Positions 4,217 through 30,441 of a stretch of DNA of 31,613 bases are shown piece by piece. The first letter of the stretch is position 1. Each line of letters starts with the position of its first letter. Origin of the DNA: a virus; IMG/VR virus record IMGVR_UViG_3300008259_002412, positions 1 through 31,613 of that record. One strand, 5' to 3'. The translations under genes were made by a program, and so were the position numbers. The notes beneath the pieces were generated by a model that made no database searches, was not told where the DNA came from, and saw nothing but the letters and a program-made list of their open reading frames with translations.

Positions 4217-5071
4217 ATGTTAACCATAGAAGAAGAAATTCAAGAAACCATCGATTCAATGAAGGATACTCTACTACTTACTGATAGTAGATTGGGTACC
4301 TTTTTGGTATATAAAAACGATACTGTAATAAGTAAGTCAATTGACATGTACGGAGAATACTGTCAAGCAGAAGTTAATATACTTAAGGAATACTTATCAA
4401 ACGATTTTAGCCAATACGTAGATATAGGTACTAATATTGGATATCACCTAGTAGCAGTACACAAAGAAACAAATTGCAATGTGTTAGGGTTTGAACCTAA
4501 TCCTAAACATTTTGCAGTAGCATCATATAACAGCAAAGACTATCCTAAAATTCAAATTATCAATGCCGGTGCCAGCAATAAAAAATCTGAACGTGTTTTA
4601 AAAGATTTTGACCCCACACAAAATACTAACTACGGTGACATTCATATTACCGGTGATGAGGGAATTACTGTTAAAATGATTTCCCTAGACAATATTGATC
4701 TTGCTACATGTAATGTTATCAAAATTGATGTGGAAGGACATGAGTTTGAAGCACTACAGGGATGTGTTAAGACTATCAGTAAGCATAGACCTGTTATATT
4801 CTATGAAGCAATGGAATGGGATGTGTGGAATAATTGTCAAAAGTTTTTAGAAGCAAGAAAATACAAACAGTATTGGGTAGCTTGTAGAACTAAGCCAATT
4901 GCTGAAACGTTTAAACCCAGTGATGAGAACCCATTTAAAGATAGTACAGTATCTAATATACTAGCAGTGCCAGCTGAATTCCCACAACCGGATCATTTAG
5001 TTGAAGTTATCCCGGGTGAGGGATTTACAACATGTTTTCAACGCTATAAGAAACTTAAGCTATTGTTTTAA
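4217..5071 (+). CDS. FkbM family SAM-dependent methyltransferase
   Basis: The 284-residue protein has a class I methyltransferase core. Motif I is VDIGTNIGYHLVAV (about residues 72-85), the acidic end of strand 2 is GFEPNPKHF, and the FkbM hallmark is IKIDVEGHEFEALQG near residues 172-187, followed by KHRPVIFYEA. FkbM relatives methylate hydroxyls on sugars or polyketides, so glycan or small-molecule O-methylation is plausible. GAGAGA at 4204-4209 is the likely ribosome site. It is the first gene of a four-gene operon (4217-8188) with another methyltransferase-like protein and two radical SAM proteins; the next start lies 1 nt after its stop. The substrate cannot be read from the sequence. 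Confidence 0.88.
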   Translation: MLTIEEEIQETIDSMKDTLLLTDSRLGTFLVYKNDTVISKSIDMYGEYCQAEVNILKEYLSNDFSQYVDIGTNIGYHLVAVHKETNCNVLGFEPNPKHFAVASYNSKDYPKIQIINAGASNKKSERVLKDFDPTQNTNYGDIHITGDEGITVKMISLDNIDLATCNVIKIDVEGHEFEALQGCVKTISKHRPVIFYEAMEWDVWNNCQKFLEARKYKQYWVACRTKPIAETFKPSDENPFKDSTVSNILAVPAEFPQPDHLVEVIPGEGFTTCFQRYKKLKLLF

Positions 5072-5072
5072 T

Positions 5073-5699
5073 ATGGTAGCTACTATGAGAATAGACACAG
5101 ACCATTTACATCATTGGATGAGAGCTATTCGTGGTAGTAAAGATCCCCTAAGAACATTGGATGCATTTTGGAACGGTCAAATAAAAAGCAAAGAGTGGTT
5201 AATAGATAGTTTAGATTTTGTTGTTCGTCCCTATATCAATAAAACACTACTGTCAGTAGACATTCACGGTGGCTGGGTTGGAGTACTAGCCAGCATGTTG
5301 TTTCAAAGTAACTTACACATATCAACTATTCGTAGTATTGACATTGACCCTGATTGTCAAGATATAGCCCACACTATGAATCAGATAGAAACTCATGCAG
5401 GAAAATTTCGTGCTATTACCAGTGACATGTGTGTAATTAGGTCAGATGCAGATATTGTCATAAACACTAGCTGTGAACATATATCACAAGATGATTACGA
5501 ATTATGGTTGTCTGGAATTAGGAACGATAGTTTAATAGTTTTGCAAAGTAATAATTACTCAATACCAGAACATGTTCGTATTGCTAATAACTTAGAAGAA
5601 TTTAAGAGTCAGTCGTGCATAGAAAATATATTATATGCGGGTGAACTTGATCTACCCTTATATAAACGATTTATGATTATTGGAAAACGTTATGTTTAA
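5073..5699 (+). CDS. Methyltransferase-like protein (class I, Rossmann)
   Basis: The 208-residue protein contains LLSVDIHGGWVGVLASMLF, a motif I-like strand-loop-helix; IRSIDIDPDCQDIAH, where an aspartate follows strand 2 as in SAM-binding proteins; and DIVINTSCEHI, resembling motif IV. This is the layout of class I SAM methyltransferases found in large phages. The open frame extends upstream to 5001, but those codons lie inside the FkbM gene; the ATG at 5073 starts 1 nt after its stop, and an ATG at 5085 is an alternative. The gene overlaps the next by 8 nt. I see no conserved substrate-binding feature. The methyltransferase fold is likely; activity and target are inference. Confidence 0.72.
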   Translation: MVATMRIDTDHLHHWMRAIRGSKDPLRTLDAFWNGQIKSKEWLIDSLDFVVRPYINKTLLSVDIHGGWVGVLASMLFQSNLHISTIRSIDIDPDCQDIAHTMNQIETHAGKFRAITSDMCVIRSDADIVINTSCEHISQDDYELWLSGIRNDSLIVLQSNNYSIPEHVRIANNLEEFKSQSCIENILYAGELDLPLYKRFMIIGKRYV

Positions 5700-6783
5700 G
5701 TTTTCTGAGCTAAAAACCTTACATATAGAGCTAACATCACGTTGTCAAGCTAGTTGCCCTATGTGTGCAAGAAATTATCATTCGGGGCAAGAAAATAAAA
5801 ACTTACCATTAGATGAAATTTCTGTAGATGATTTTAAAAGTATAGTTAATGCAGAAGTGCTTTCTCAAATCGAATACATTTATTTTTGTGGTAACTATGG
5901 AGACCCTATAATATCTAATAACTTACTAGAGATAGTTTCTTATTGCAAAAGTAAAAAAGAAAACATCAAGTTAGGCATACACACTAACGGTAGTGCTAGA
6001 ACACCAGATTGGTGGAGTAAATTGGCAACGGCACTGCCAACGGAACACAGTGTTCATTTTGCATTAGACGGACTTGCTGACACACATCACTTATACAGAG
6101 TGGGTACTAACTTTGATAAAATTTTAGAAAACGCTAAGGCATTTATATCTGCAGGTGGACGTGCTGAATGGGTTTTCTTATCTTTTAAGCACAACGAACA
6201 TCAAGTTGAAACAGCTAGACAGATGGCAAAAGATTTAGGATTTGAAAAATTTACTCATAAAGCAACTAGTAGATTTTTAGAAAAGCCGTGGCTAGATGTT
6301 ATGAATGCACAGGGTGAAGTATTACATAAAATCGAACCACCATCTGAGCATAAGATAACCTTCATACACCCTGATATTATTAAGTCTTATAAAAAGGTGG
6401 TCGAGACAGCATCCATCAACTGCAAAGCAGTAAATACTAAATCATTGTACATTGATGCATTTAAGAATTTATGGCCCTGTTGCTGGATAGGAATGATACC
6501 GTATACTTATAGTAAGCCTACAGACATTGTCCATGAATACCAAACTGAACAGTCTACTGTTATCAATGAATTAGTAACATCTATTGGTGGTTACGATTCA
6601 ATTGACCTTCTTAAGTATTCGGTCAAGGCAATTTTAGAAAACCCTGATTGGTCAACCGTGTGGGAGAAGTATTGGAATACGCATAGTCTGGCAACATGTG
6701 CTAAGATATGTGGTACATTCCCAGAAAAAATAATTACACAATATGACGAACAATTTATCAAAGTAGAATCATTCAATGAGTAA
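5692..6783 (+). CDS. Radical SAM protein with SPASM-like C-terminus
   Basis: The 363-residue protein opens with LHIELTSRCQASCPMC. The cysteines C18, C22 and C25 form the CX3CX2C site for the SAM-cleaving [4Fe-4S] cluster. Instead of the usual GGEP the second motif reads CGNYGDPIIS, a variant seen in some SPASM-type enzymes. The C-terminal part has a cysteine-rich region (NCKAV, WPCCW and, near the end, CAKICG) that could hold an auxiliary cluster as in SPASM or twitch domains. ATG 5692 overlaps the upstream stop by 8 nt and its own end overlaps the next radical SAM gene by 8 nt. SPASM enzymes typically modify peptides or proteins, so a peptide substrate is possible but not shown. Confidence 0.88.
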   Translation: MFKFSELKTLHIELTSRCQASCPMCARNYHSGQENKNLPLDEISVDDFKSIVNAEVLSQIEYIYFCGNYGDPIISNNLLEIVSYCKSKKENIKLGIHTNGSARTPDWWSKLATALPTEHSVHFALDGLADTHHLYRVGTNFDKILENAKAFISAGGRAEWVFLSFKHNEHQVETARQMAKDLGFEKFTHKATSRFLEKPWLDVMNAQGEVLHKIEPPSEHKITFIHPDIIKSYKKVVETASINCKAVNTKSLYIDAFKNLWPCCWIGMIPYTYSKPTDIVHEYQTEQSTVINELVTSIGGYDSIDLLKYSVKAILENPDWSTVWEKYWNTHSLATCAKICGTFPEKIITQYDEQFIKVESFNE

Positions 6784-8188
6784 AATATATTGGCTACAAC
6801 CAGAAGATAACCTATTAGGTAAATGGCAACGCAAAGTCGCTGATATTTCAGGCAGTGATACCTTTTGTATCTTACCCTGGATACATTTTGCTACACGACC
6901 TAACGGCGACATGAGGTTGTGCTGTGGTTCTAATTCTAGTGGTGCAGGGTCAGACCATGAGATTGGATTAGTAAAGAATGAGACCGGATCTCCTGCTAAC
7001 TTTGGTAGCGAGACTCCTATGAGTGCATGGAACAATAGCTATATGCGCTCGGTTAGAACTACAATGCTTAACGGTGAGATACCTAGAAGCTGTAGCAAAT
7101 GCTTTGATGAAGAATCAAACGGTGTGGCTAGTAAGAGAATGTGGGAGTCTGGTACATGGATACAAGATGGACTAGACGTTAAAGAACTTATCAAGCAAAC
7201 CGAAGAAGACGGGACAGTTCCTGAAAAGCTATTGTACCTAGACTTAAGATTGGGTCATAACTGTAATATCAAATGTATTATGTGTAGCCCACATGATTCA
7301 AGTAGATGGGTACAAGATTACAAAAAAGTGTTTCCTATACTTAAGTCACCCGAAATCAAATCTCAGCTAAGTTGGAATGAAGAATCGTTCAATAACAAAT
7401 GGCACGAAAATCCAGACTTCTGGAAAGAGATGTATGCACAAATTCCTAATCTAAAGCAAGTATACTTTGCGGGCGGAGAGCCTCTAATGATTAAAGAGCA
7501 TAAACTATTCTTAGAAGAAATTGTTCGTCAAGGTTATGCCAACAAGATATTAATTAGATACAACTCAAATGGTTTGTTACTTGATGATAGTATCATTAAA
7601 TTGTGGGAGAAGTTTAGAAAAGTTAAGTTTGCATGTAGTCAAGATATGTTTGGAGACAGAAATCACTATATCAGATACCCAACAGAGTGGGACATAGTGG
7701 AAGAAAAGCTAGAGATACTAGATAACACACAAGACAACATTGAAGTAAGCATTGCTACTGCTATTCAAATTTTAAACGTTAAGAAACTACCTGAGTTTGC
7801 TAAGTGGAAGATTCAAAAGAACTATAAGAAAATCAACAAAGCAACAGTCATGGACGAGTCTGATGCAGGCGGGGGAATCTTTAACATGCATTTTGTTTAT
7901 ATCCCTACGTTTCTAAGTGTCAAAATATTACCCGAAAAAGACAAGCAAGAAGTAAGAGAAATTTATAGAGAGTTTAAGACTTGGTTATGGGACAACTATA
8001 GACAGGATGATAACTTTTGGCATCACAACCCGTACGGGTGGAAACGTTGGCAAGCTATATTAGACTTCATGGACAGTGAAGACCATACACATTTACTGCC
8101 TGCATTCAAAGAGTATATAGAGACTATGGATAATGTTAGGGGGACTAGTTTCAAAGAAACGTTCCCTGAGTTAAGTCACTTGATTTAA
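6776..8188 (+). CDS. Radical SAM protein with N-terminal twitch-type cysteine domain
   Basis: In the 470-residue protein the N-terminal domain has FCILPWIHFATRPNGD and a CC pair at 49-50, then CSKC at 106-109, the pattern of radical SAM proteins in which the auxiliary-cluster (twitch-type) domain precedes the core. The core follows with CNIKCIMC (C163, C167, C170) and the SAM-binding motif FAGGEPLM near residue 236. Later parts include a typical substrate barrel. It is the last gene of the 4217-8188 operon, overlapping the previous gene by 8 nt, and its 3' end overlaps the convergent gene by 18 nt. Similar domain order recurs in the genes at 9066, 27526 and 28698, which suggests repeated duplication. 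The substrate is unknown. Confidence 0.9.
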   Translation: MSKIYWLQPEDNLLGKWQRKVADISGSDTFCILPWIHFATRPNGDMRLCCGSNSSGAGSDHEIGLVKNETGSPANFGSETPMSAWNNSYMRSVRTTMLNGEIPRSCSKCFDEESNGVASKRMWESGTWIQDGLDVKELIKQTEEDGTVPEKLLYLDLRLGHNCNIKCIMCSPHDSSRWVQDYKKVFPILKSPEIKSQLSWNEESFNNKWHENPDFWKEMYAQIPNLKQVYFAGGEPLMIKEHKLFLEEIVRQGYANKILIRYNSNGLLLDDSIIKLWEKFRKVKFACSQDMFGDRNHYIRYPTEWDIVEEKLEILDNTQDNIEVSIATAIQILNVKKLPEFAKWKIQKNYKKINKATVMDESDAGGGIFNMHFVYIPTFLSVKILPEKDKQEVREIYREFKTWLWDNYRQDDNFWHHNPYGWKRWQAILDFMDSEDHTHLLPAFKEYIETMDNVRGTSFKETFPELSHLI

Positions 8189-9073
8189 CTTTGTCAATGG
8201 TATATCTGCCGCACACGTACAGTAATTTCTATCGCAGATAACGGGACTGGTGGGTACAACGAACGAGTTGGTATATATATTTCCTAATGTTCCACCAACT
8301 CTACACGTAGCCCGATGTACGTCACCGTCCCAGTTAATCATTAAACTTTCTAACCCTGCATTGCATTGCCAATCTTTATATTGATTTAAATGCTTTTTAA
8401 TCACATCATTGGCATGCATCATTAGTTCACGATCCTTGTATATAATAACTGTATTTGGTTGTACTGTACTACTCTTGCTCAGTATCCAATCTAAATCGTT
8501 CTGGTCATACTTCATATCGTCAAACAAATCGTGGTCACCCTCAGTCCAACGTATTCTACGTATGCCGTGATTAATGTTATGATGCTCTAATAAGCCCGCT
8601 GCCGTCTTTACTTCTCGCATATGATTATGATGAGCCATAACGTTAACTAATACGTGAGTGTGCATAACAGTTTCATGCACAGCTTTGATAGTGTATAATA
8701 CATTTAACCAATCGTACTCAAAGTGTAGTGAGAATACCCATTGGTCTACTTGCTGAGATGTATACCAACTATCCTTTCTAGTTCCATTAGTAGTAATACT
8801 AAGCCAAAATCCTTTGCTCTTAATATATGATATGAGTTCTTCTATACGAGGATGTACGCATGGTTCACCACCAGTTAAACTTAAACGAATAGGCTTTTCT
8901 AAGTCACATAATCTATCTACAGTTGCCTTAAGTATTTCAATATCGGTGTGGGGACTACTGTTATCATGTATAACTGAAGGACAGTAACTACAATCATAGT
9001 TACAGCGTTTTCCTATATTCCATTCAATCTTAATACTATCCTGATGATTCCAGCGACTTTTAACTTTATGCAT
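8171..9073 (-). CDS. Radical SAM protein with SPASM-like C-terminus
   Basis: In the 300-residue protein C24, C28 and C31 (RCNYDCSYC) form the cluster site, and LSLTGGEPCVHP is the SAM-amino-group motif. The C-terminus has spaced cysteines (WQCNAG, ATCRVGG, VICDRNYCTC) consistent with an auxiliary cluster. The closest relative in this window is the gene at 23032, which shares W..G.xCNYxCSYC, GGEP and the C-terminal order of C-N-x-G, G-x-L and C-x4-C. It is the last gene of the minus-strand operon 11010-8171; its ATG overlaps the upstream stop by 8 nt. It converges with the 6776 gene with an 18-nt overlap of coding ends and no room for a terminator. The reaction is unknown. Confidence 0.9.
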   Translation of the reverse strand: MHKVKSRWNHQDSIKIEWNIGKRCNYDCSYCPSVIHDNSSPHTDIEILKATVDRLCDLEKPIRLSLTGGEPCVHPRIEELISYIKSKGFWLSITTNGTRKDSWYTSQQVDQWVFSLHFEYDWLNVLYTIKAVHETVMHTHVLVNVMAHHNHMREVKTAAGLLEHHNINHGIRRIRWTEGDHDLFDDMKYDQNDLDWILSKSSTVQPNTVIIYKDRELMMHANDVIKKHLNQYKDWQCNAGLESLMINWDGDVHRATCRVGGTLGNIYTNSFVVPTSPVICDRNYCTCAADIPLTKLNQVT

Positions 9074-10370
9074 AAGTCTTAAACTCTGGGATTACTGTTA
9101 ATAAACTTTGGTTGCGAGTACTGTCTAATGCATAGTTAAATGATAGAAAATCTTGCCACAAGTTATGTTGATCCTTTGCACGTAAGTAATTGATATTGTC
9201 CTTTATCTGCTGTTGTGTTACCTTTTCTAGTATAGGATGTTTAACAACATTACTAAATGTGTGGACTTTTTTACTGATTGTCTCAAGACGTTGTATAGCC
9301 AACTCTTTGAGTTCATGTGGTAATACTTGTGCTGAAAGACAATTGGGATAGCTAACACGATGACTATAGAACACAATATTCATTTTGTTGATAAAATAGT
9401 CGATACATTCAGCAGCCTGTAGTATATTGCCTGCTTGTGCGGTAAACGCACCTACTACACGACTTACGTTGGGTATTGTTTGAATTTCTTTTATGTTTCT
9501 TTCAACTTCACTAAAGTCACCGTTGCCCCTTATATAATTATATACATCGTTGATTCCATCAAGGCTAACGTTAACTGCAATGCTTCTAAAGTATGGCCAG
9601 TAATCATGTATTGTACGTCCCTTGCTGATACCAAGTGTAGTTCCATTAGTAGCATACTTGAGTTCAATGTTCTTCCCATATGGTTTCAGCATGTCTAGTA
9701 TCTTATAATGTTGTGGGTCCATTAATGGCTCACCACCTGCAAACTCTACACGCCTAAAGTGTGGTAATAATTTTTCAAAACTCGCCCACCAGTTGTCAGT
9801 ATCATCAAATGCACCTATGTACTTGCCCGGCTTATTTACCAATGATTCAATTGTGGGAACTAAAAAGTTGTTTTCTTTTTTATAAAACGGTACAACTTTA
9901 TCCCAATCTGTCCAATTAGTGCTGTCTAATGGATTGCACATGCGGCACTTTAAGTTGCATAGATTGTTGAGTTTGATTTCCATAGTAGGAAATGTGAAGG
10001 GTAGTATTTCTTGTAGTGGTGTATCTGGATACAAGTTGATACGTGCTTCGGGTATCACTCCGTTAATATGTCGTTGACGTAGACTTTCTACTCCCTGATC
10101 TTCTAAATCAAAGCAAGGCTTACATACTTCAGGTCGTTCCCCGGATAACACTTGCCTACGTACAAGTTGCATTGTGTCATTATTCCAAATTTCTTCTAAC
10201 GTATTGTCTTGAATATGACCAATTGGCGCACTACGACAACAGACTTTAACTGCCCCATCTTCACGTGTAGCTAGCCCGGTAAAAGGATGCATACAAAACG
10301 TTTTACTTTGATTGTTCAATTGCCCACTCTCTTTCTTTACACCAAAAACACGTGTTACATAACGGAACAT
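9066..10370 (-). CDS. Radical SAM protein with N-terminal twitch-type cysteine domain
   Basis: The 434-residue protein has N-terminal FCMHPFTGLATREDG, a CC pair at 44-45 and CKPC at 83-86, then the radical SAM core with CNLKCRMC (C138, C142, C145) and EFAGGEPLMD. LEEIWNND after the CC pair matches the conserved LxxIWNxD segment common near auxiliary cysteine domains. The architecture parallels the 6776 gene. The ATG at 10370 overlaps the PP-loop gene by 68 nt, unusually long for this genome; AGGA lies upstream. An internal TTG giving MNNQSK just before FCMHPF is an alternative start that would shorten the overlap to about 15 nt. Middle gene of the three-gene operon 11010-8171. Confidence 0.88.
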   Translation of the reverse strand: MFRYVTRVFGVKKESGQLNNQSKTFCMHPFTGLATREDGAVKVCCRSAPIGHIQDNTLEEIWNNDTMQLVRRQVLSGERPEVCKPCFDLEDQGVESLRQRHINGVIPEARINLYPDTPLQEILPFTFPTMEIKLNNLCNLKCRMCNPLDSTNWTDWDKVVPFYKKENNFLVPTIESLVNKPGKYIGAFDDTDNWWASFEKLLPHFRRVEFAGGEPLMDPQHYKILDMLKPYGKNIELKYATNGTTLGISKGRTIHDYWPYFRSIAVNVSLDGINDVYNYIRGNGDFSEVERNIKEIQTIPNVSRVVGAFTAQAGNILQAAECIDYFINKMNIVFYSHRVSYPNCLSAQVLPHELKELAIQRLETISKKVHTFSNVVKHPILEKVTQQQIKDNINYLRAKDQHNLWQDFLSFNYALDSTRNQSLLTVIPEFKTYA

Positions 10371-11010
10371 ATTGTCCTGTTATGTAATTTTTATAATTTA
10401 AATTGTCAAACACACCCTCACAACTTCTAGTCAGTTCAAACAGTTCTAGTAAGTTTTGTTTTCTATACTCTAACAGTATTTCTTTCTTTTCTAAGAATCT
10501 AAAAGGATGAATAGCAGCCTTACCCATATGCGTAGTATACTCTAGATGCTTGTTAGACTCACTAGGATCAATGTCTCTAGTATACATCCCGGCAAATTCC
10601 ACTGCTTTCGGGTTACGTGTTACTGCGTTATAATATACATCGATATCATGTGAATAGCATATGTATTCAGCAAAAGACCGTAACTCAATATTGTCACCGC
10701 TGACACTTTTTCCATACTCATCAGTTAGAATGGGTCCTAATTCTCCCCACTCCATTTCAGGTGGAATAAAGTTCTCATGTCTAAACATCTTAACATTAGG
10801 AAACTTAATCTGTAACCAATTATATACACCAAGAGCATCATTTCTTTGCCAGGGCTTTGTTTTCCAGCATCTAACATGTGATATTATATGCAGTTCTTGG
10901 TGTGTAATTTGCTGACATATAAGAAATGCTAGCAATGCACTGTCGGCTCCACCACTTAGACTAATAGATATCTTTTTCCAACTATCATCAAAGTGAATAT
11001 TCATGTACAT
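10303..11010 (-). CDS. QueC-like PP-loop ATPase
   Basis: The 235-residue protein has the P-loop variant ISLSGGADSALLAF with SGGADS at 19-24, the adenylating PP-loop of the N-type ATP pyrophosphatase superfamily. The C-terminus carries CEG...CNTCFWCKERE, a four-cysteine zinc-type motif as in QueC/ExsB (7-cyano-7-deazaguanine synthase). The middle is diverged from canonical QueC, and no queD, queE or folE partner is in the window, so I call it QueC-like. Such enzymes activate a carboxylate or carbonyl with ATP. The late-type box upstream overlaps ATG 11010 and ends 5 nt before the in-frame ATG at 11004 (M3), so 11004 is the likelier start. First gene of the operon with the radical SAM genes at 9066 and 8171. 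Confidence 0.82.
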   Translation of the reverse strand: MYMNIHFDDSWKKISISLSGGADSALLAFLICQQITHQELHIISHVRCWKTKPWQRNDALGVYNWLQIKFPNVKMFRHENFIPPEMEWGELGPILTDEYGKSVSGDNIELRSFAEYICYSHDIDVYYNAVTRNPKAVEFAGMYTRDIDPSESNKHLEYTTHMGKAAIHPFRFLEKKEILLEYRKQNLLELFELTRSCEGVFDNLNYKNYITGQYVPLCNTCFWCKEREWAIEQSK

Positions 11011-11033: not shown

Positions 11034-11041
11034 TATAAATA
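11034..11041 (+). promoter_or_regulatory. Late-type promoter box TATAAATA
   Basis: An exact T4 late consensus. It ends 2 nt before ATG 11044 and 5 nt before ATG 11047. No Shine-Dalgarno fits between box and start, so the mRNA may be leaderless with 11047 as start. Confidence 0.75.
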
Positions 11042-11043: not shown

Positions 11044-11727
11044 ATGATGCTTAAAGAATTAAATCACACTGTACCAAAAGATATTCTAGACAAAGCCATG
11101 GCAGAATTTTCTTACAGTGATTTTAAGACACCCATTAACGAACCCACTGGTAATTTTTTCTATAGTCCATGGACTATTAGACCAGAGTTCAGAGACACAA
11201 TATGGGAATCTATCTTACAGACACTGCCTTATCCGATCGGAGAAGCAAGATTAATAAACTTAAAATACGGAGTCTGCTATCAAAGTCATGCAGATATAGA
11301 TGATAGATATCATTTAAACATACAGGGTGACATTTCTGCACTGATTAATTTAGACACAAACACAATGTACCCTATAACTACAGATGGTAAATGGTACGAA
11401 ATGGATGCGTCAAGTAGACACAGCGCCGCAAACTTTGGATATGTAGAAAGAATACAGTTAGTAGTTAGAAAGCTATTAAACAAAAACAATGTATCGAATC
11501 CAACAATGGTTGTTATAAAGAGTAAAACAGATAATGAATTTAGCAATAGATTTCTATTTGATAATCACCTAAGCGGACTTCTCAACATCTACAACAAAAA
11601 CAACATTATTACAGATTTCAATCCTACTAGCAAAGAAGTCAAACTCTGTATTAATTCAGATTACATTAGTGAATTAGAATCTAAAATGTCTGAAAACTTT
11701 TACATATTAAGGAATAACAATGATTAA
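11044..11727 (+). CDS. Fe(II)/2OG oxygenase-like (Asp/Asn hydroxylase type) protein
   Basis: In the 227-residue protein SHADIDDRYH gives the HxD metal pair (H82, D84), RHSAANFG the distal histidine (H126), and R136 in VERIQLVVRK is the usual 2-oxoglutarate anchor. This is the double-stranded beta-helix (jelly-roll) signature. LKYGVCYQSH before the HxD and the RHS-x2-N context recall aspartyl/asparaginyl hydroxylases. The C-terminal 80 residues (VIKSKTDNEF onward) are extra and unassigned. The late-type box suggests ATG 11047. First gene of the three-gene operon to 12959, overlapping the next by 8 nt. Hydroxylation of a protein side chain is the family expectation; the target is unknown. Confidence 0.75.
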   Translation: MMLKELNHTVPKDILDKAMAEFSYSDFKTPINEPTGNFFYSPWTIRPEFRDTIWESILQTLPYPIGEARLINLKYGVCYQSHADIDDRYHLNIQGDISALINLDTNTMYPITTDGKWYEMDASSRHSAANFGYVERIQLVVRKLLNKNNVSNPTMVVIKSKTDNEFSNRFLFDNHLSGLLNIYNKNNIITDFNPTSKEVKLCINSDYISELESKMSENFYILRNNND

Positions 11728-12406: not shown

Positions 12407-12407
12407 T

Positions 12408-17877: not shown

Positions 17878-17885
17878 TATAAATA
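17878..17885 (+). promoter_or_regulatory. Late-type promoter box TATAAATA
   Basis: An exact T4 late consensus, 6 nt before the ATG at 17892 (TTGTGA between). No Shine-Dalgarno. It drives the kinase-like and GNAT-like pair. Confidence 0.75.
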
Positions 17886-19707: not shown

Positions 19708-19715
19708 GTTAAATC

Positions 19716-20926: not shown

Positions 20927-20946
20927 TAATTTTATTCTCTTTGTGA

Positions 20947-20954
20947 TATTTATT
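20947..20954 (-). promoter_or_regulatory. Late-type promoter box AATAAATA
   Basis: On the minus strand this box lies 20 nt before ATG 20926, leaving room for a short leader with GAGAA. It is the exception to the 4-6 nt spacing of the other nodes. Confidence 0.5.
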
Positions 20955-20959
20955 AAATA
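20952..20959 (+). promoter_or_regulatory. Late-type promoter box ATTAAATA
   Basis: ATTAAATA overlaps the ATG at 20959 and lies 5 nt before the in-frame ATG at 20965, the same geometry as at 11004. It is the weakest match to the consensus and overlaps the opposite-strand box. Confidence 0.45.
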
Positions 20960-23035: not shown

Positions 23036-24039
23036 GTTTTTACTTTTGGTATTTTACTATCAGCACTAGACACACATGATGGTGTAGTACAAATTACGGG
23101 CTTGTCAAATATAGTAAAGCCCTTACTTAATGATCCTAGTGGTGTGTCGCTACAACTGTACGAACGTTTTACTTCATCACTACGTATTACTATTCCCTGA
23201 TACCCACTATTGCACATCCATCCTTCAAACTTATTGAATCCAAAGCTGTTAAAGCGTTCAGCTTGATCTAACCAATGTACCTTGTTTGTATCATCTATTA
23301 GTTTAACTTGTAGCACCGGTTCGTTGTTAGCCTGTTGTGGGAACCCGTTACGCATAATCTGTACCATCTCGTCTGTATATCCACTGACTACAAAACTAGC
23401 AGTAGGATCACTTTGTGGCTTAAGCGTAACATTGATCCCGCGTTTATGAAAACGATTCAATCGTTCGTAGCTTTCCCAAAAGAATTCAGGAACCATAACT
23501 TGATTGACTGTCACATAGACTTGTTCACCCATCAACGCTAGTATCTTATCCCCAAACTCTAGTTCCTTAGCAAACTCACTATGGTAGCTAGCAGTAAGAC
23601 TTCTACGTTGTAGTAGACTAGTAGCTTTCTCCCATCGTAGCCACCAATTGATACTAGGTGATAGATTGGTAGTCATGTGGACACTTTGATAACCTTCTAC
23701 TGGTCCCTCATCTAAGTGCTGAGTTAATTCTAGTAGATGCTTGTATGCAGTGGGTTCACCACCGCTGAAACTCCAATGAAACTTGTTAAAGCCATTTCGC
23801 CTAGCTTGTGTTTTAATGCTGTCAATACTATTCTTGTACACGGATAACTCCTGATGATCCGGCACGTTACTATTAGCATATGGCCAGCAATAGCTACAGC
23901 TATAGTTACAAAATCGTCCAAGTATCCAGCTAACAGTAAACAAGTTCATCTCAAGCATATTTGCTTGTCCAAACTTAACTATTCTATCGAACGGAATGTC
24001 ACTGAAGTTGTTTTGTATACTCATCATGTAGCCATTCAT
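23032..24039 (-). CDS. Radical SAM protein with SPASM-like C-terminus
   Basis: In the 335-residue protein LGRFCNYSCSYC (C44, C48, C51) binds the cluster and WSFSGGEPTAY is the SAM motif. The C-terminal MCNSGYQG, SYSCSDTPLG and VICTTPSC are arranged like the auxiliary-cluster region of the 8171 protein, its paralogue here. The start lies inside the upstream gene; ATGs at 24039, 24027 and 24024 are all in frame and none has a strong Shine-Dalgarno. ATG 24024 (MSIQNN) would reduce the overlap from 41 to 26 nt. Second gene of the 25540-22370 operon. Confidence 0.88.
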   Translation of the reverse strand: MNGYMMSIQNNFSDIPFDRIVKFGQANMLEMNLFTVSWILGRFCNYSCSYCWPYANSNVPDHQELSVYKNSIDSIKTQARRNGFNKFHWSFSGGEPTAYKHLLELTQHLDEGPVEGYQSVHMTTNLSPSINWWLRWEKATSLLQRRSLTASYHSEFAKELEFGDKILALMGEQVYVTVNQVMVPEFFWESYERLNRFHKRGINVTLKPQSDPTASFVVSGYTDEMVQIMRNGFPQQANNEPVLQVKLIDDTNKVHWLDQAERFNSFGFNKFEGWMCNSGYQGIVIRSDEVKRSYSCSDTPLGSLSKGFTIFDKPVICTTPSCVSSADSKIPKVKT

Positions 24040-25540
24040 AGTTATTGATTAGTTTTAGTTTGTCGGCATCGTGCATGTTTGTTTCACCGTATAGCTTACC
24101 CATCAATGCACCGCGAATCGTTTCACGACCATATTGTTCTTCAGATCCAGCACTACACCAGACAAATAATCTGTTCATTGTTTCACTTGATTGTTGCCTG
24201 TCTATAACTTGACTAGATAATTTGACGCATTCACGGAACGCAGTACGCCATGCACCAAACTCATCCGTATTGAACTTGTGTATGTTGCTTATAATGTTTA
24301 TTGGTTCATACAATGTGCTAATGCTGGTAGTCATATCTACTTTGTTAGTGCTCATGCGCATAGTAGCAAGTCGAGGAAGCAGTTTAATTCCACCGTGACC
24401 GTATACTAGTTTGTTGACAGGGTTTAATGAACGAAAGACTCTGACAGTAGGTTGTTCGTAGAATTTTACATCATTGTATACAAAGTTAAAATCATCGTGT
24501 ATGATTGCATCACCGTCTACTACCCAAAAGTAATCAGTCTGACACATCTTGGCAGCACGTATATGTGCATTGTGTATACCCTGAACCCCGCTCAGTAATT
24601 TAGCACGTGGGAAACGTTCTTTAACTTTATTGAAATTTTCTTCTGCACCTAGCTCATTGTTATGAATAAACACAATGTCATACTCCGGGGTATAGTTTAC
24701 GGGGCTACGTGTTGGGTTGGTAATACGGGTTCTGTACTCACTACTAGACCAGCCAGTTATGGCTAACCCTATGTTATCATCATTGGTCTTTTCTTTAATT
24801 AATATACCTAATACATTTACTTCTTCTAGTAGTGTTCCGGGCATTACACTTATCATGTGGTCAAACAATTTATCAAGGAATGTAAAATTCTTAATGTTAT
24901 TAGATCCGTCCCAGTTATTCACTTTGAGCATGAAGTAAGCAAGTCTTGCTCCATAGATAGAGTATAATCCGTTTTCTATGTCTTCACCAATATGCATCCA
25001 TCGCCATACTCTGTCATAGTTACGCCAGTCTATGTTGTCATCACGTGTGAGTTTTATTACTTCACGAAAACCTGCACGCCATGCTTGTAGTGGACTACTA
25101 TTGATATGTAAGTCACTACCTATGTTGTTTAGTTCTATGTACTTGTTTAACACAAAGTCAATACTATCGTCATCGCCGTTTTCGTGTGTGCGCATTTCTA
25201 TGATATGTTTAACTGGCCAGCACTTGATACCACCATTCCCATAACTAGTGCCATTGACAATGTTGTATCCTGCATAGCTTATAACATCCTCATCTGTGTA
25301 TTCAATGTCAATGTCGGTTGTATAGAAGTCATCTCTTACCCAATTGTCGCCGTCTACAATAACCACTCTGTCGGTTGTTGCTAGTTTGGCACATTCTTTA
25401 TGTGCAGTATCACTACCCTCTACCCCATGCACTCTTAATGCATTTGGGTTAAGGGTTAGTAGATGTTTGTAGTTTTCCTCACAGTTTGGTTCGTCATAAC
25501 TTAGAAACACTGTGGTATAGTCTGAAGGATTAAATCGCAT
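23999..25540 (-). CDS. Internally duplicated glycosyltransferase-like protein
   Basis: The 513-residue protein is made of two homologous halves. Residues 11-65 (VFLSYDEPNCEENY to VVIVDGD) recur at about 288-345 (VFIHNNELGAEENF to FWVVDGD), and each is followed by YGNGGIKCWP or YGHGGIKLLP and by AWRAGFREVIKL or AWRTAFRECVKL. The DGD at a strand end, after a helix with NxAH/DTAH, is the DxD-type metal and nucleotide-sugar site of GT-A glycosyltransferases. Both halves keep DGD, so both could be active. Predicted cytoplasmic. First gene of the operon with the radical SAM and SGNH genes. A late-type box ends 5 nt before its ATG. Confidence 0.75.
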   Translation of the reverse strand: MRFNPSDYTTVFLSYDEPNCEENYKHLLTLNPNALRVHGVEGSDTAHKECAKLATTDRVVIVDGDNWVRDDFYTTDIDIEYTDEDVISYAGYNIVNGTSYGNGGIKCWPVKHIIEMRTHENGDDDSIDFVLNKYIELNNIGSDLHINSSPLQAWRAGFREVIKLTRDDNIDWRNYDRVWRWMHIGEDIENGLYSIYGARLAYFMLKVNNWDGSNNIKNFTFLDKLFDHMISVMPGTLLEEVNVLGILIKEKTNDDNIGLAITGWSSSEYRTRITNPTRSPVNYTPEYDIVFIHNNELGAEENFNKVKERFPRAKLLSGVQGIHNAHIRAAKMCQTDYFWVVDGDAIIHDDFNFVYNDVKFYEQPTVRVFRSLNPVNKLVYGHGGIKLLPRLATMRMSTNKVDMTTSISTLYEPINIISNIHKFNTDEFGAWRTAFRECVKLSSQVIDRQQSSETMNRLFVWCSAGSEEQYGRETIRGALMGKLYGETNMHDADKLKLINNYEWLHDEYTKQLQ

Positions 25541-25545: not shown

Positions 25546-25553
25546 TATTTATA
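25546..25553 (-). promoter_or_regulatory. Late-type promoter box TATAAATA
   Basis: An exact consensus on the minus strand, 5 nt (CAGTC) before the ATG at 25540. No Shine-Dalgarno between. Confidence 0.75.
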
Positions 25554-25562: not shown

Positions 25563-25566
25563 CGTC

Positions 25567-26925
25567 ATGCTTAAGATTATTAGTTCTCCGCCATTTGACG
25601 ATTACAGTAAAAAACTGTTCTTTCAAGTGTTCGGTCAAAAGAAAAATTTGGGTTTAGATAGTGCTAGTTTCGTATATCTATGGACAGGACCGTTAACTAA
25701 TAGCAATACCTATTCATACGGCAACGCTATGTTGTCCAACAAAAACCCTACATCATTGCCCAAGTTTATTGATTTTATATTCTCTCATTCACCGATGCTA
25801 GCCGGTAAAAAAAGATTTTTTAACTCACGTGATGAAATGTTTTCTTTATATCTTGAATATGTTGGGGTAGATGTTTCACGTGAAATATTTGACCAGTACT
25901 ATTCTACCTATGTAGAAAGCATCATGGACCGTAGTACAATGGAAGATATGATTCAAGAGGCGTGCGTCAATGACATTGTAGTATTATTTGTAAAAGATCA
26001 CTTTAGGATAGATTTTAAGAATTCTTGGATCGATCCTATACCCGAACTAGTTACTTACTTTAGAAATTTGTGTGATTACTTTCCCGATAAAAAATTTATC
26101 ATTGTCACTAGCTTGGAAAACTTAGATAAAGAACTAACGTCTAGTAATTGTAAAATAGTGAATATGGGCGGTGATATAACTAATCAGATATCAAATTATA
26201 TGAATTTTACTCCTTTGATAGAGAAATCTGCAACTAAGAATTTTATATCACTGAACCGAGGAGACAGACCTCATAGGGTGTATCTAGTTTCAAATTTATA
26301 CGCTAAAAATTTACATAATTATGGGCAGATCAGTTTATTAACCCCGCAAAACCCTGATGAAAAACTCAATGAAACAATTACGTATGACTATGAAAATGAC
26401 CAAAATTATGAATTAGCAAACGTTGGTTTCAGTAAGTATTTGACTGAACATAATCATCAGACTGACGATAGCTATCATATTTACCCTCAGCGTGGTAATG
26501 ACAATTTACGAAATTTTCAAGATTCTTTACAGAGTAAGTATCTTAATAGTTATGTGGAATTTGTCTCGGAAACCAGTTACAATGAAAAGAGCTTCAACAT
26601 AACGGAAAAAACATTACATTTTATATATGGGTGCAATTATCCTATAATGATTTCCAGCCCCGGGGTAGTCAAATTTCTGCGAGAAATGGGGATAGATATG
26701 TTTGACGATATAATTGACCATTCATATGATGATATAAAAGATCCATGCGAACGCATTGTCCAAGCTATAAACAAAAATATAGAAATTTTAACTATGGATC
26801 TGGATACTCTACGGAAACAGTGGGAAAGTGATAAATACAGAATGGAGCAAAATATTAATTTTGTCCAGACCAAATTAGCTAAATTCTACCAGGATAGATT
26901 TTGGCAACAGATTAAAGGATTATAA
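25567..26925 (+). CDS. Fucosyltransferase-like (GT-B) protein
   Basis: In the 452-residue protein the C-terminal 250 residues carry KNFISLNRGDRPHRVYLVSN, EFVSETSYNEKSFNITEKTL, GCNYPIMISSPGVVKFLREMG and FDDIIDHSYDDIKDPCER. This is the pattern of phage and bacterial glycosyltransferases related to GT10 fucosyltransferases (ITEKTxxxxxxGxxPxI...G). The N-terminal half (YLWTGPLTNSNTYS, FIFSHSPMLAGKKRFF) is unassigned. No signal peptide. It starts 4 nt after a late-type box and is followed 1 nt after its stop by the sulfotransferase-like gene. A glycan or glycosylated virion protein is the likely target class; the sugar is unknown. Confidence 0.7.
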   Translation: MLKIISSPPFDDYSKKLFFQVFGQKKNLGLDSASFVYLWTGPLTNSNTYSYGNAMLSNKNPTSLPKFIDFIFSHSPMLAGKKRFFNSRDEMFSLYLEYVGVDVSREIFDQYYSTYVESIMDRSTMEDMIQEACVNDIVVLFVKDHFRIDFKNSWIDPIPELVTYFRNLCDYFPDKKFIIVTSLENLDKELTSSNCKIVNMGGDITNQISNYMNFTPLIEKSATKNFISLNRGDRPHRVYLVSNLYAKNLHNYGQISLLTPQNPDEKLNETITYDYENDQNYELANVGFSKYLTEHNHQTDDSYHIYPQRGNDNLRNFQDSLQSKYLNSYVEFVSETSYNEKSFNITEKTLHFIYGCNYPIMISSPGVVKFLREMGIDMFDDIIDHSYDDIKDPCERIVQAINKNIEILTMDLDTLRKQWESDKYRMEQNINFVQTKLAKFYQDRFWQQIKGL

Positions 26926-26926
26926 C

Positions 26927-27529
26927 ATGGTACATTACACACTACTGCAAGACGCAATTCCTTCAGTATTCAACATTGATTTTCTACAAGCATGTAGTGA
27001 AAAATTAGAGTATTTTATAGATTCAAAAACTCTATTGGGAGGAGAAGATGTTCACTCTATTAAGGAAGTAGATGAAATATTTGATTTATCAAACTCACAA
27101 GAGTTCAAAACCATTGCAATCAAAATTAATCCATTCAAGCGAGTAGTACTACACTATTTTGCATATAATAACTATCCTGCGGAAGAATACTCTGACTCTG
27201 AATATTACACTCAATTTACTGATACTGATGATTTTGATAAGTTTGTTGAATATTATTTTTCACCAGATAACCTCGAAGGACCGTTGTTAAATTCAAGTGA
27301 CTATTACTTTACCGACACCCTGTCTGTTACGTGTTTGTTAGAATTTGATACTTTTGCTACTGACATAAAACAGATTCCTGAATTCAGTACTGTAGAAAAT
27401 ACTGATTACTTTCACGTGGCTCAAGCCTTATCCGCTGATTACCGTAGCTACTACACTACGCAAGCTACAATTGATAAGGTCACTCAAGTGTATGCAAAAG
27501 ACCTTGCTAAGTACGGATATACATTCTAA
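26927..27529 (+). CDS. Sulfotransferase-like protein without visible PAPS loop
   Basis: In the 200-residue protein FKTIAIKINPFKRVVLHYFAYN resembles the 3'-phosphate-binding strand and helix (RNPxxRxxSxY) of sulfotransferases, and the end TQATIDKVTQVYAKDLAKYGYTF matches their C-terminal helix (xxxIxxVYxxDxxxFGY). CLLEFDTFATDIKQIPEF also fits. The N-terminal PAPS loop (PKTGGTS or GTxG) is not seen, so activity is doubtful unless it has diverged. AAAGGA precedes ATG 26927. Co-transcribed with the fucosyltransferase-like gene. It overlaps the convergent radical SAM gene by 4 nt. Low certainty on function. Confidence 0.5.
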   Translation: MVHYTLLQDAIPSVFNIDFLQACSEKLEYFIDSKTLLGGEDVHSIKEVDEIFDLSNSQEFKTIAIKINPFKRVVLHYFAYNNYPAEEYSDSEYYTQFTDTDDFDKFVEYYFSPDNLEGPLLNSSDYYFTDTLSVTCLLEFDTFATDIKQIPEFSTVENTDYFHVAQALSADYRSYYTTQATIDKVTQVYAKDLAKYGYTF

Positions 27530-28698
27530 TAGCAATCAACTACGTCGGGAAAAGTCTTACGCCAGTTTAATCGGCGAATCTTATCCATCTGTTCAATATA
27601 ATTGAACATGGGAGACGCATCATCATAAACCTCCATGTTACTAAACATTTTGCTTATGTCATGATCGTCTCCATACTTACGAAATACCTTTTCTCTTAAT
27701 TTGTGATTAGCAAATCTCAAATCCATTGTGCCTAAACATGCATTGGGTCTTACTATAGAACGGTTGATTCTAAATTTACTAAGCGGGATGTTGTCTTTCA
27801 GCCAGTCCTCTAAATCTTTGACATATAATACATTCAATGGACTAATCGTACAATTTACATGTAGTTGGGCAGTAGTTTCATTCATTAGTCGTTTAATGAT
27901 AGGATCACATCTATGCCATTTAAGTGGCCAGCGTAGATAGTTAAACCTTTCACCCACACCATCCAAACTTGCACCGTATACAATGAACTTATAGTCTTCC
28001 CATAGTTTAAGTACTTCATCGCTAGGGTAGATGCTTCCGTTTGATTGATACCGTATACTAACTTTACTTAGATCCGGATGAACTTCTTTTAAGTGTCTGA
28101 GCATTTTAACGTGAGATTTAGTATAAAAGGGTTCCCCTCCCATAATAAAAATAGTCTCTAGTTTGTCTAGTGGGACCGTACTTATAAGTTTACGAAACAA
28201 TACATCACTGGTATCAGTATCATCTTCAGTAAGTTTTATTTTGTAAAGACCTTCTGCTATTTTTCTTTCAAAAGAATTGTTTATATTAATTACTTTATTG
28301 GTTATACCATGTAAGTTTATGTTATGTTTCTTTTCAAACTTAGCCCATGTACTACTACAATAACTGCCACAGCTAAGACACGCGGCATTGCATTTAGTAT
28401 CAAAGCTAATCTCTAGATTGACGCAATCACCAGTCACTGAATCAGCGGATATGATATTATTTGCATTCAATCTGGGTTTTAGTATGTCTACGCTTGATTC
28501 CTCCATTGTCTTACATGAACTGCATTCAGGTAACCAACCAGTCGCATTATGTGCGTATTCCATTTCTTTCTTCAATTCTACTGTGTTCGACAGGTCAGTC
28601 TTCTTAGAATAGAAACAACACGGACTCCAAAGAAGTCTATCACCTTGAACGTTTATCTTGTATCCGTTACTAAGTTGTCTACAAAATGCATTAGCCAT
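27526..28698 (-). CDS. Radical SAM protein with N-terminal cysteine domain
   Basis: The 390-residue protein has N-terminal C6, CC at 27-28 and CSSC at 59-62 (auxiliary twitch-type domain), then ISFDTKCNAACLSC (C103, C107, C110), FIMGGEPFYTKSH and SIRYQSNGS. YLRWPLKWHRCDPIIKRL and the C-terminal WRKTFPDV are shared almost word for word with the 28698 protein (YLRWPLQWSQ, WRKVFPEI), so the two are tandem paralogues. ATG 28698 shares one base with the upstream stop (TAATG). Second of a two-gene operon from 29810. Confidence 0.88.
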   Translation of the reverse strand: MANAFCRQLSNGYKINVQGDRLLWSPCCFYSKKTDLSNTVELKKEMEYAHNATGWLPECSSCKTMEESSVDILKPRLNANNIISADSVTGDCVNLEISFDTKCNAACLSCGSYCSSTWAKFEKKHNINLHGITNKVININNSFERKIAEGLYKIKLTEDDTDTSDVLFRKLISTVPLDKLETIFIMGGEPFYTKSHVKMLRHLKEVHPDLSKVSIRYQSNGSIYPSDEVLKLWEDYKFIVYGASLDGVGERFNYLRWPLKWHRCDPIIKRLMNETTAQLHVNCTISPLNVLYVKDLEDWLKDNIPLSKFRINRSIVRPNACLGTMDLRFANHKLREKVFRKYGDDHDISKMFSNMEVYDDASPMFNYIEQMDKIRRLNWRKTFPDVVDCY

Positions 28699-29810
28699 TA
28701 TTTAAAATATCTCTCTATCTCTGGAAAAACTTTACGCCATTCTAATTTTCTATGTTTGTCATGATATTCAACATGTTTCATAAACTCATTATATGCTATT
28801 GTAGTATAATTGGGTATGCATTTGTCAACGGTGTGGTCATTTTTATTTGAGCCATAGTCCTTATATTTTTTTCTAACTATCATAGCTAATACAGGTGGCA
28901 ATGCTGCCAAGCTCATAACTCCATTAGCCATAAAAGGTTGTCTAAAAATATTCTTTGGATCGTACTTGGTATTTTTAAAGAATTCATGCGCCCATGCATC
29001 GTACCTATCATGATAGAAAATATTAAATGGTGTTAATGTATAACTACCGGTTATACCAAGATTGGATAAGTTCAACTCAACGATGTATTGTAAATTTTTC
29101 TCAACTTGTGACCATTGCAATGGCCAGCGTAGATAATTAAAGTGTTCACCTATCGCATCAAGGCTAAAGTGTAGGTTAAGATGAGCTAACTCAGACCATA
29201 ATGCTAGCTGTTCTACAGTAGGCTTTGCACTACCATTAGTAATGTATGTTACGCGGACATTCTTCAAATCTTGTACTTTTTTAACTTCTTGTAGTATTCT
29301 AAAATGAGTATCTGTTCTAAGAGGTTCACCGCCTAAAAAAGTAATATGTCTAACCTTGTCAAATTTAACTGTTTCATATATTTGCTTCAACCAAATTTCA
29401 ACATTGTCTTCATTGTTTTTGATAGAGAACGTTTTTTTGTTAATAGTTTGAGTGGTATATTGATCCCACGTAGTACTATTCCAATCCCCACATATAAGAC
29501 AAGCACCGTTGCAATCTCTATCAATTTGAAATTCTAAACTAATACCTTCCCCTTTTATCCACTCTATGGGTATAAGTCTGGGCTTGTTTGCATCATATCT
29601 AGGACTATGCATACCTTTATCTTCCCTGACCTTGCAAAAATTACATTCAGGAACCCAATCTTTGATTTCATATAATTCTTGCTTATATTTTTCAACAGCT
29701 TCTGGACCCTCCGATAAGTCCTGTGTTTTAGTATACCAGCAACATGGTTGAAGTACTCCGTATACAAATCGGTATTGGTTAGTAAGAAAATTACAAAAAT
29801 TCTGAGTCAT
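28698..29810 (-). CDS. Radical SAM protein with N-terminal cysteine domain
   Basis: The 370-residue protein has N-terminal C6, CC at 23-24 and CNFC at 56-59, then FQIDRDCNGACLIC (C100, C104, C107) and HITFLGGEPLRTD. It is the tandem paralogue of the 27526 product; shared landmarks are PCCxYxKTxDLS, PECxxCKxxE, the DCNxACLxCG core, GASLDG/HFSLDA and the WRKxFP end. A late-type box ends 4 nt before the ATG. A pair of near-identical architectures in one operon suggests a heterodimer or two sequential modifications. Confidence 0.88.
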   Translation of the reverse strand: MTQNFCNFLTNQYRFVYGVLQPCCWYTKTQDLSEGPEAVEKYKQELYEIKDWVPECNFCKVREDKGMHSPRYDANKPRLIPIEWIKGEGISLEFQIDRDCNGACLICGDWNSTTWDQYTTQTINKKTFSIKNNEDNVEIWLKQIYETVKFDKVRHITFLGGEPLRTDTHFRILQEVKKVQDLKNVRVTYITNGSAKPTVEQLALWSELAHLNLHFSLDAIGEHFNYLRWPLQWSQVEKNLQYIVELNLSNLGITGSYTLTPFNIFYHDRYDAWAHEFFKNTKYDPKNIFRQPFMANGVMSLAALPPVLAMIVRKKYKDYGSNKNDHTVDKCIPNYTTIAYNEFMKHVEYHDKHRKLEWRKVFPEIERYFK

Positions 29811-29814
29811 GCAT

Positions 29815-29822
29815 TATTTATA
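29815..29822 (-). promoter_or_regulatory. Late-type promoter box TATAAATA
   Basis: An exact consensus on the minus strand, followed by ATGC and then ATG 29810, a gap of 4 nt. No Shine-Dalgarno. Confidence 0.75.
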
Positions 29823-29838
29823 AGCTATTGGGTAACTC

Positions 29839-29846
29839 TATAAATA
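29839..29846 (+). promoter_or_regulatory. Late-type promoter box TATAAATA
   Basis: An exact consensus, 1 nt before ATG 29848 and 4 nt before ATG 29851. By comparison with the other nodes 29851 is the likelier start. Confidence 0.75.
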
Positions 29847-29847
29847 T

Positions 29848-30441
29848 ATGATGCTTAATGAACCTAGTCTAGCTATACTTATTGATTGTTGGCTCCTCCC
29901 GTATCAGTCTGATCTAGCATCAAATATTATCAATTACATAGATAGTAACCCGTTTATAAACACAGTCGCACTAGCATCATACAACTGCAAGACTGAGTTT
30001 ACTCGCAGTAAGACTTTGTGGTACACTAATTACAGAACAATGTTTAATGCTGACCCTGCTCCTAAAAAAATCAAAGATTTAAGTTACGCACATTTAATGA
30101 ACTTAGTCAAAGACAACGCATACGCTGTAGAGCAAACTGACCCATTAATACTTACGTACTGTAACACTAAAAAATTTCAAATAGCAATGCATAGGGCATG
30201 GCAACTTGAATATTATTTTTCTCTTAATCCGGGGATAAAGAATGTGTACGTGTTCGGCGCGGCATGGGAAATATGTGTCAAGATTCGAGATTTGGGTTAT
30301 GTAGCACTTACTGAAATTCAGGGCATCAATATACTTACTCGCTCTAATTGTGTAGAGACTAGTCCTGGCAAGCATCCAAAATTAGACCTTGAACCCGACT
30401 GGGTCAAGGTTGATAAAGATGTTTATAAATATATTGGGTAA
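29848..30441 (+). CDS. Isochorismatase-like (cysteine hydrolase fold) phage protein
   Basis: The 197-residue protein begins with LAILIDCWLLPYQSDLASNI, a hydrophobic strand ending in Asp as at the start of isochorismatase-fold proteins. Strand INTVALASYNC and late strand NVYVFGAAWEICVKIRDLGY would place C147 in EICVKI where the family has its nucleophile. The basic residue of the triad is not clear. Phages carry many diverged members of this fold without known activity. Start either ATG 29848 or, more likely, 29851, beside a late-type box. Single-gene unit diverging from the tandem radical SAM pair. Function uncertain. Confidence 0.6.
   Translation: MMLNEPSLAILIDCWLLPYQSDLASNIINYIDSNPFINTVALASYNCKTEFTRSKTLWYTNYRTMFNADPAPKKIKDLSYAHLMNLVKDNAYAVEQTDPLILTYCNTKKFQIAMHRAWQLEYYFSLNPGIKNVYVFGAAWEICVKIRDLGYVALTEIQGINILTRSNCVETSPGKHPKLDLEPDWVKVDKDVYKYIG
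30424..30431 (+). promoter_or_regulatory. TATAAATA inside the 3' end of a gene
   Basis: An exact late-type box lies within the last codons of the isochorismatase-like gene. It could add late transcription of the short unit and tRNA region downstream, but may be coincidental in AT-rich coding sequence. Confidence 0.35.

Follow-up and report, generated by a model that had tools for sequence, protein, structure and literature searches.

The window analyzed here, IMG/VR record IMGVR_UViG_3300008259_002412 (31,613 nt), holds an enzyme island at positions 4217-30441, a span of ~26 kb and about thirty genes. Called genes leave only 142 bp of this span uncovered, and nearly every gene is enzyme-like. 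A sequence-only reading had described nine radical S-adenosylmethionine (SAM) proteins and seven 2-oxoglutarate (2OG) oxygenase-like proteins mixed with glycan-type enzymes. Profile searches and a gene-neighborhood comparison have now upheld these families, and the gene set co-occurs widely. The genes of the island are listed below and are referred to by their first coordinate.

4217..5071, plus strand: FkbM-family methyltransferase (PF05050 4.6e-16; TIGR01444 above cut-off)
5001..5699, plus: class I methyltransferase-like protein, fold judged by eye; part of a module common with Bdellovibrionota
5680..6783, plus: radical SAM protein common to Bdellovibrionota and Campylobacter phages (PF04055 3.8e-12)
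6776..8188, plus: twitch radical SAM protein (NF033640 387 bits, cut-off 170)
8171..9073, minus: radical SAM protein (PF04055 1.8e-11)
9066..10370, minus: twitch radical SAM protein (NF033640 314 bits; PF13186 SPASM 2e-9)
10303..11010, minus: PP-loop (QueC/NAD synthase-like) protein, weak matches; SGGADS and a C-terminal CxxCxxC conserved
11044..11727, plus: 2OG oxygenase, Asp/Asn hydroxylase-like (PF05118 0.014, under cut-off; invariant H/D/H)
11720..12406, plus: kinase-fold protein (profile match to protein kinases, E 2.7e-6)
12393..12959, plus: 2OG-type oxygenase (invariant HxD...H)
12946..13497, minus: SDR-like Rossmann protein by eye, no Pfam match; also in related islands
13490..14014, minus: 2OG-type oxygenase (invariant HxD...H)
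14014..14523, minus: 2OG-type oxygenase (invariant HxD...H)
14523..15335, minus: hallmark 2OG-type oxygenase of the island, from conservation and predicted fold
15323..16789, minus: B12-binding radical SAM protein (PF04055 1.7e-12; PF02310 2.2e-5, under cut-off)
16789..17850, minus: zinc-ribbon radical SAM protein, distant Tes/TrsS relative (PF23545 8.5e-14; NF045702 3.8e-28, under cut-off)
17892..18575, plus: kinase-fold protein (profile match to protein kinases, E 2.7e-6)
18568..19119, plus: GNAT-fold acyltransferase (AlphaFold2 (AF2) predicted local distance difference test (pLDDT) 88.8; top Foldseek matches GNAT enzymes)
19120..19734, minus: 2OG oxygenase, Asp/Asn hydroxylase-like (PF05118 0.0043, under cut-off; HxD present)
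19716..20273, minus: non-enzyme gene, fiber-like by eye, flanked by two 2OG genes; candidate substrate
20270..21055, minus: 2OG oxygenase, Asp/Asn hydroxylase (PF05118 4e-13)
20959..22365, plus: two-domain protein, C-terminal part SAM methyltransferase-like (PF04672 1e-4, under cut-off; family in 37 of 80 loci)
22370..23035, minus: SGNH/GDSL hydrolase-like protein (PF00657 0.0017, under cut-off)
23032..24039, minus: radical SAM protein of the module common with Bdellovibrionota (PF04055 7e-10)
23999..25540, minus: tandem GT2-like protein (PF00535 exactly at cut-off; relatives in bacterial loci)
25567..26925, plus: protein of 452 aa, no significant match
26927..27529, plus: protein of 200 aa, no match
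27526..28698, minus: twitch radical SAM protein (NF033640 159.8 bits against 170; CX3CX2C intact)
28698..29810, minus: twitch radical SAM protein (NF033640 175 bits)
29848..30441, plus: protein of 197 aa, isochorismatase-like by eye, no match

On profile and motif evidence, all nine radical-SAM genes are real. PF04055 scores above its cut-off in eight of them and the CX3CX2C motif is intact in all nine; the ninth, 27526, reaches 23.5 bits with PF04055 (cut-off 29.5) and aligns with positions 5-396 of the 398 of NF033640. This twitch radical-SAM model matches four genes at full length, with 6776, 9066 and 28698 above the cut-off and 27526 just below it. A weak B12-binding domain accompanies the radical SAM domain of 15323, and 16789 carries an HMPTM zinc ribbon and has Tes and TrsS as its top NCBIfam models, at scores far under their cut-offs. 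The step from SPASM/twitch domains to peptide substrates, taken in the sequence-only reading, carries little weight on its own, since NF033640 describes a subfamily to which no substrate is assigned.

The seven 2OG oxygenases are credible: one passes a profile, the rest carry HxD...H motifs, and 14523 also has a fold match. Gene 20270 alone passes the PF05118 cut-off, 19120 and 11044 match it weakly, and 12393, 13490, 14014 and 14523 have no Pfam match. The predicted metal ligands are invariant across relatives in five genes, as H180/D182/H236 in 14523, H113/D115/H168 (12393 numbering) in 12393, 13490 and 14014, and H82/D84/H126 in 11044; for 19120 and 20270 the check was for the presence of HxD, which both have. 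A structure model of 14523, built with 32 relatives and of medium confidence (pLDDT 73.8, with the active-site loop modeled poorly), has 2OG-type oxygenases as its top PDB matches at low TM-scores, and these weak matches are spread over many 2OG families, AlkB-type among them.

The remaining enzyme labels fared unevenly. The FkbM methyltransferase was confirmed, 18568 has a GNAT fold by structure, and no sulfotransferase was confirmed in the window. The PP-loop protein 10303 has a weak match on its own and is related (E 3.8e-11) to a family that passes the QueC model, while the GT2 label of 23999 sits at its cut-off and the SGNH label of 22370 below it. PDB profile searches for 14523, 10303, 18568, 20959, 23999 and 5001 gave no usable match; 5001 also lacks a Pfam match, and its orthologs suggest a true start near 5085. 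The sequence-only reading, which saw almost no structural gene, overlooked the fiber-like 19716 and the two kinase-fold proteins. In the latter, 11720 and 17892, the usual catalytic residues, including the catalytic Asp/Asn pair, are not recognizable by eye in the alignment; these near-universal proteins of the island are possibly pseudokinases or substrate-binding adaptors.

Searches found the 14523 family in 388 IMG/VR stretches, of which the best 80 show 75-99% identity, and our locus counts refer to 20 kb around the gene in each of these best 80 (loci L109-L188), which are partly non-independent (same or related samples) and in which genes near locus ends are undercounted. The kinase-fold families of 11720 and 17892 occur in 74 and 70 of the 80 loci, the 2OG oxygenase 12393 in 70, the GNAT protein in 67, twitch radical SAM proteins in 65, 16789 in 60, 11044 in 58, 13490/14014 in 56, 8171 in 54, 20270 in 48, a pyridoxal phosphate (PLP)-like family in 42 and the B12 radical SAM protein 15323 in 41. 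Gene order is largely constant in most loci, accessory content is variable, and core genes retain 55-99% identity between divergent phages. In the nearest large relative, a 124 kb contig (G002), almost the whole island is present in conserved order, mostly at 90-99% identity. Island contigs carry up to 17 radical-SAM genes, against 0, 0, 0, 1 and 4 in five cultured control phages (161-469 kb) chosen for a related T4-like capsid or NrdB. Chance does not explain this clustering. Twitch, TauD and 13490 enzymes also stand side by side as paralogs, several copies each, as would be expected if one polypeptide has several sites. A 249 kb contig (G036; L107-L108) has about ten twitch radical-SAM paralogs in a same-strand array.

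Among the accessory genes of related islands are a tryptophan halogenase, an amidinotransferase, a class III aminotransferase and TauD oxygenases, with at most four TauD-like copies per locus (accessory-gene coordinates L155:4774-6351, L155:8155-9195, L168:15860-17044 and L114:2976-3830), together with a second QueC-like PP-loop protein. For the PLP-like family, a PDB profile search gave a mere hint of threonine aldolase. Of 29 island contigs, 19 encode an A-type Fe-S carrier, which none of the five control phages has and which is also missing from the Campylobacter phage CP220; it fits a demand for Fe-S clusters, but it could instead reflect the habitat.

A T4-like phage is the very probable source of the window, because G002 encodes a capsid protein of the gp23 type, with 63-67% identity to those of T4-like jumbo phages, and a T4-like NrdB (62%); the window itself is without such a gene. 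By eye, G002 also has an ADP-heptose-type epimerase gene and a heptose-kinase-like gene at about 106.7-108.6 kb (L079). A pattern scan of 84,980 GTDB species, which distant relatives could escape, did not find 14523, tblastn found no match to it in 50,697 cultured-phage records, and no relatives of 15323, 23032 or the flanking gene 19-2598 were found in cultured phages.

Part of the island has cellular counterparts. At least three members of a module of 6776, 23032 and 5680, often with 23999 and 5001, cluster in fourteen bacterial loci, nearly all from Bdellovibrionota and one in a 936 kb contig. Bdellovibrionota genomes have twitch radical-SAM clusters with relatives of 23032, 5680, 23999 and 5001 at L203, L205, L206, L210, L213, L235, L242, L251, L252, L255, L269 and L272. 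In the 23032 tree, phage and bacterial copies lie on opposite sides of a single branch, which argues against recent exchange between phages and bacteria within the sample. Recent capture of the island from bacteria is thus unsupported, the pattern scan having found 14523 in no GTDB genome. One contig of a Gammaproteobacteria metagenome-assembled genome (MED685; L197) has six twitch radical-SAM genes with 23032-, 5680- and SDR12946-type genes, and may itself be from a phage and binned there.

The divergent blocks of the island are separated by short regions that contain T4-late-like boxes, which in the window lie as follows.

11034..11041, plus strand: TATAAATA T4-late-like box, 2 nt before 11044
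17878..17885, plus: TATAAATA box, 6 nt before 17892
25546..25553, minus: TATAAATA box, 5 nt before 23999-25540
29815..29846, no strand assigned: two opposed TATAAATA boxes (at 29815 and 29839) between the divergent genes 28698 and 29848

At 81 of the 280 distinct leading starts of island genes in these loci, the end of TAAATA is separated from the start codon by exactly 4 nt (47 cases) or 5 nt (34 cases), where shuffles predict 0.57 per position; internal operon starts show no such enrichment. Counted regardless of position, TATAAATA does not exceed chance in the window (8 against 6.2 expected). If these boxes work as T4 late -10 elements, transcription would start on the ATG or no more than a few bases from it, and the late mRNAs would be leaderless, which we infer from box position. 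Beyond the island, the box also precedes a few genes in related contigs, fiber-like and small genes among them. One contig (G007, position 105107; L086) has, by eye, a phage ribosomal protein S21 homolog whose start follows a TATAAATA box by 5 nt.

The genes on the left of the island include the two listed here, and four tRNA genes (Arg-ACG, Met-CAT, Ile-GAT, Gln-TTG) lie right past it at 31160-31482.

19..2598, plus strand: putative virion protein of 859 aa ending in CNCDCWD, start cut by the record
2638..3270, plus: cell-wall hydrolase (SleB-like), endolysin (PF07486 7e-19; PHROG endolysin)

The former has no Pfam or PHROGs match. Its C-terminal CNCDCWD (window 2569-2598) is unchanged in every relative with its C-terminus read, down to ~30% overall identity. 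The relatives (loci L036-L073) were fetched partly by the pattern CNCDCWDD, but many do not contain this precise sequence, and a search artifact therefore does not explain the conservation; the motif is possibly a metal site or a modification site. Where present, the gene lies upstream of the island, and tailoring-type genes come next in most lineages. As a universal substrate it is unlikely and was rejected, being absent from 27 of 34 island contigs, which are fragments in which absence is unproven. Another candidate, 3236, was dropped as, by eye, a general T4-like protein. PHROGs gave no match for 19716 and no informative match for the fiber-like genes beside islands.

Starting from what is directly established, namely the enzyme families, their co-conservation, the late-promoter-like boxes and a core that holds no conserved non-enzyme gene, we tentatively favor the view of a virus-specific assembly line that is expressed late, passes between T4-like phages and acts on a protein of the virion surface; the display of its product on the virion and each individual reaction are what we infer. 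According to this view, the short divergent operons would be switched on jointly late in infection. The radical-SAM enzymes might then perform C-H activations on one target, in the form of cross-links, methylation by the B12 enzyme and epimerisation-type steps, while the 2OG enzymes would hydroxylate side chains of the same target, the attachment and capping of groups would fall to the GT2-like, methyltransferase, PP-loop and GNAT enzymes, and the kinase-fold proteins may bind or phosphorylate the substrate. The target may be an adhesin or fiber, or the CNCDCWD protein in lineages that have it. The sequence-only reading had likewise proposed a tailoring system active late in infection; the enzymes and the late-like boxes support it, but they do not choose among the virion protein, glycan or peptide that it named as substrate.

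We favor a polypeptide on the virion because of the position beside virion genes, the late boxes, the hydroxylase type and the adjacent paralogs. The island adjoins 19-2598 in lineages 43-100% identical, 19716 is retained between two 2OG genes in six contigs, and in pelagimyophages radical-SAM cassettes lie with tail fibers in the host-recognition cluster (PMC7029224). Several observations weigh against this preference. The hallmark enzyme 14523 is highly conserved, unlike fast-changing fibers, and no substrate is kept across all islands, 19716 being limited to one subgroup. Pfam scans of the window found no RiPP recognition element (RRE) or PqqD match; no precursor peptide was recognized, since the island has no conserved small gene and only those 142 uncovered bp. 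The marks of a ribosomally synthesized and post-translationally modified peptide (RiPP) cluster, a precursor peptide with an RRE, were thus not found, and a large protein substrate is still compatible with this result. In some bacterial loci the relatives have GT2, PMT_2, asparagine-synthase and carbamoyltransferase genes as neighbors, and in cyanophage S-SCSM2R the relative of the amidinotransferase lies near KdsA/KdsB and glycosyltransferases; both are glycan contexts, and the bacterial relatives seem to point to glycan genes at least as much as to peptides.

These same contexts, together with the constancy of the enzymes, which suits a fixed substrate, speak for late remodeling of a host surface glycan or lipid, such as lipopolysaccharide (LPS) or capsule sugars, for superinfection exclusion or release, the main rival, which we consider somewhat less likely. 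Here the GT2-like, FkbM, SGNH, GNAT, aminotransferase and amidinotransferase enzymes would act on sugars, and the radical-SAM and 2OG enzymes would make exotic sugar changes. Some of the bacterial loci with the 6776-23032-5680(-23999-5001) module have clear GT2 genes nearby, Campylobacter phage F379 has a nucleotide-diphospho-sugar transferase inside its radical-SAM cluster, and in pelagimyophages the host-recognition clusters combine radical-SAM with glycosyltransferase genes, which were interpreted as O-chain changes (PMC7029224). The conserved core, however, has few glycosyltransferases and no nucleotide-diphospho-sugar dehydratase or epimerase, and late timing is late for exclusion. An LPS or glycan island would be expected to hold a nucleotide-sugar pathway and several glycosyltransferases, whereas Pfam scans of the window gave a single GT2-like gene, at its cut-off, and no sugar-nucleotide enzymes. 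Those Asp/Asn hydroxylases and SPASM/twitch enzymes that have a known function act mostly on proteins, peptides and cofactors.

A diffusible small molecule or cofactor (an inhibitor, metallophore or signal), made by something akin to a compact natural-product cluster, is improbable. The tryptophan halogenase, class III aminotransferase, TauD, second QueC-like PP-loop and amidinotransferase of related islands would suit such a product, but no scaffold-forming enzyme, carrier protein, exporter or precursor peptide was recognized in the island, which leaves little uncovered sequence. Deazaguanine or thymine hypermodification is common among phages, and the QueC-like PP-loop genes, the radical-SAM and 2OG enzymes and the weak AlkB-type fold matches of 14523 could be read as hypermodification of phage DNA or tRNA; this is highly improbable, given the late-type boxes, an enzyme number far above that of such pathways and the spread of the 14523 matches over many 2OG families. 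Least probable of all is a heterogeneous cargo of unrelated auxiliary genes with no common product, to which the variable accessory content and the hypervariable regions of T4-like phages (PMC7029224) lend something, but the same families stand together in largely the same order in most of the 80 loci, with a core 55-99% identical.

It is possible, if somewhat doubtful, that the island represents an ancient and widespread viral pathway of about twenty enzymes, with a core oxygenase and kinase-fold proteins that have no detected cellular relatives, serving a chemically new modification of a molecule on the virion or envelope surface; uncultured T4-like phages would then own a radical and oxidative chemistry that rivals the most elaborate natural-product clusters. 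Since 2010, modules rich in radical-SAM genes have been noticed in T4-like phages, with no function attached to them. The set now divides into a conserved core with a near-invariant hallmark enzyme and a smaller module that Bdellovibrionota also have, and cultured phages with part of it are known. What was anecdotal thus becomes a defined system whose parts can be tested; it points to new enzymatic chemistry and possibly to a new layer of modification of the virion or envelope in aquatic phages. In the open-access literature we found no description of the 2OG/radical-SAM/kinase-fold/GNAT core, its restriction to viruses in the collections searched, the promoter arrangement or the Bdellovibrionota module; the radical-SAM-rich character of such regions is already known.

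The density of these genes, which had been called unusual, is indeed so, but it has precedents. The Campylobacter phages CP220 and CPt10 have 11 and 12 radical-SAM genes in a cluster called an interchangeable module (PMC2853527); we re-found the 11 of CP220, three of which match the 5680 family at 1e-25 to 1e-29. CP220, CPt10 and F379 are T4-like, and their interchangeable radical-SAM cluster includes a glycine amidinotransferase related to one found in related islands; for the island, clustering and exchange were likewise seen, but the window has no amidinotransferase gene. Unlike the island, these modules gave no 2OG, kinase-fold, GNAT, PP-loop or 14523 profile match in the stretches searched. 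The T4-like genome TARA_ERS488813_N000010 has 12 radical-SAM genes (PMC5332604), and it and the pelagimyophages (PMC7029224) resemble the island as aquatic T4-like phages with radical-SAM genes in a variable region, the TARA genome also having an Fe-S carrier; the papers mention these genes in passing and describe no conserved 2OG/radical-SAM core. Vibrio phages K566/K567 (254 kb, cultured) have five twitch-like radical-SAM genes, with relatives of the twitch family seen in K566, but gave no 2OG-core profile match in the 31 kb region read. Cyanophage S-SCSM2R is like related islands in that its amidinotransferase relative adjoins 2OG genes, and unlike the island in that the region is a glycan region and the genome has two radical-SAM genes. 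The Bdellovibrionota clusters, finally, share with the island adjacent orthologs of 6776, 23032 and 5680, often with 23999 and 5001, and differ in that they lack detectable 14523, kinase-fold, GNAT (18568) and PP-loop (10303) members.

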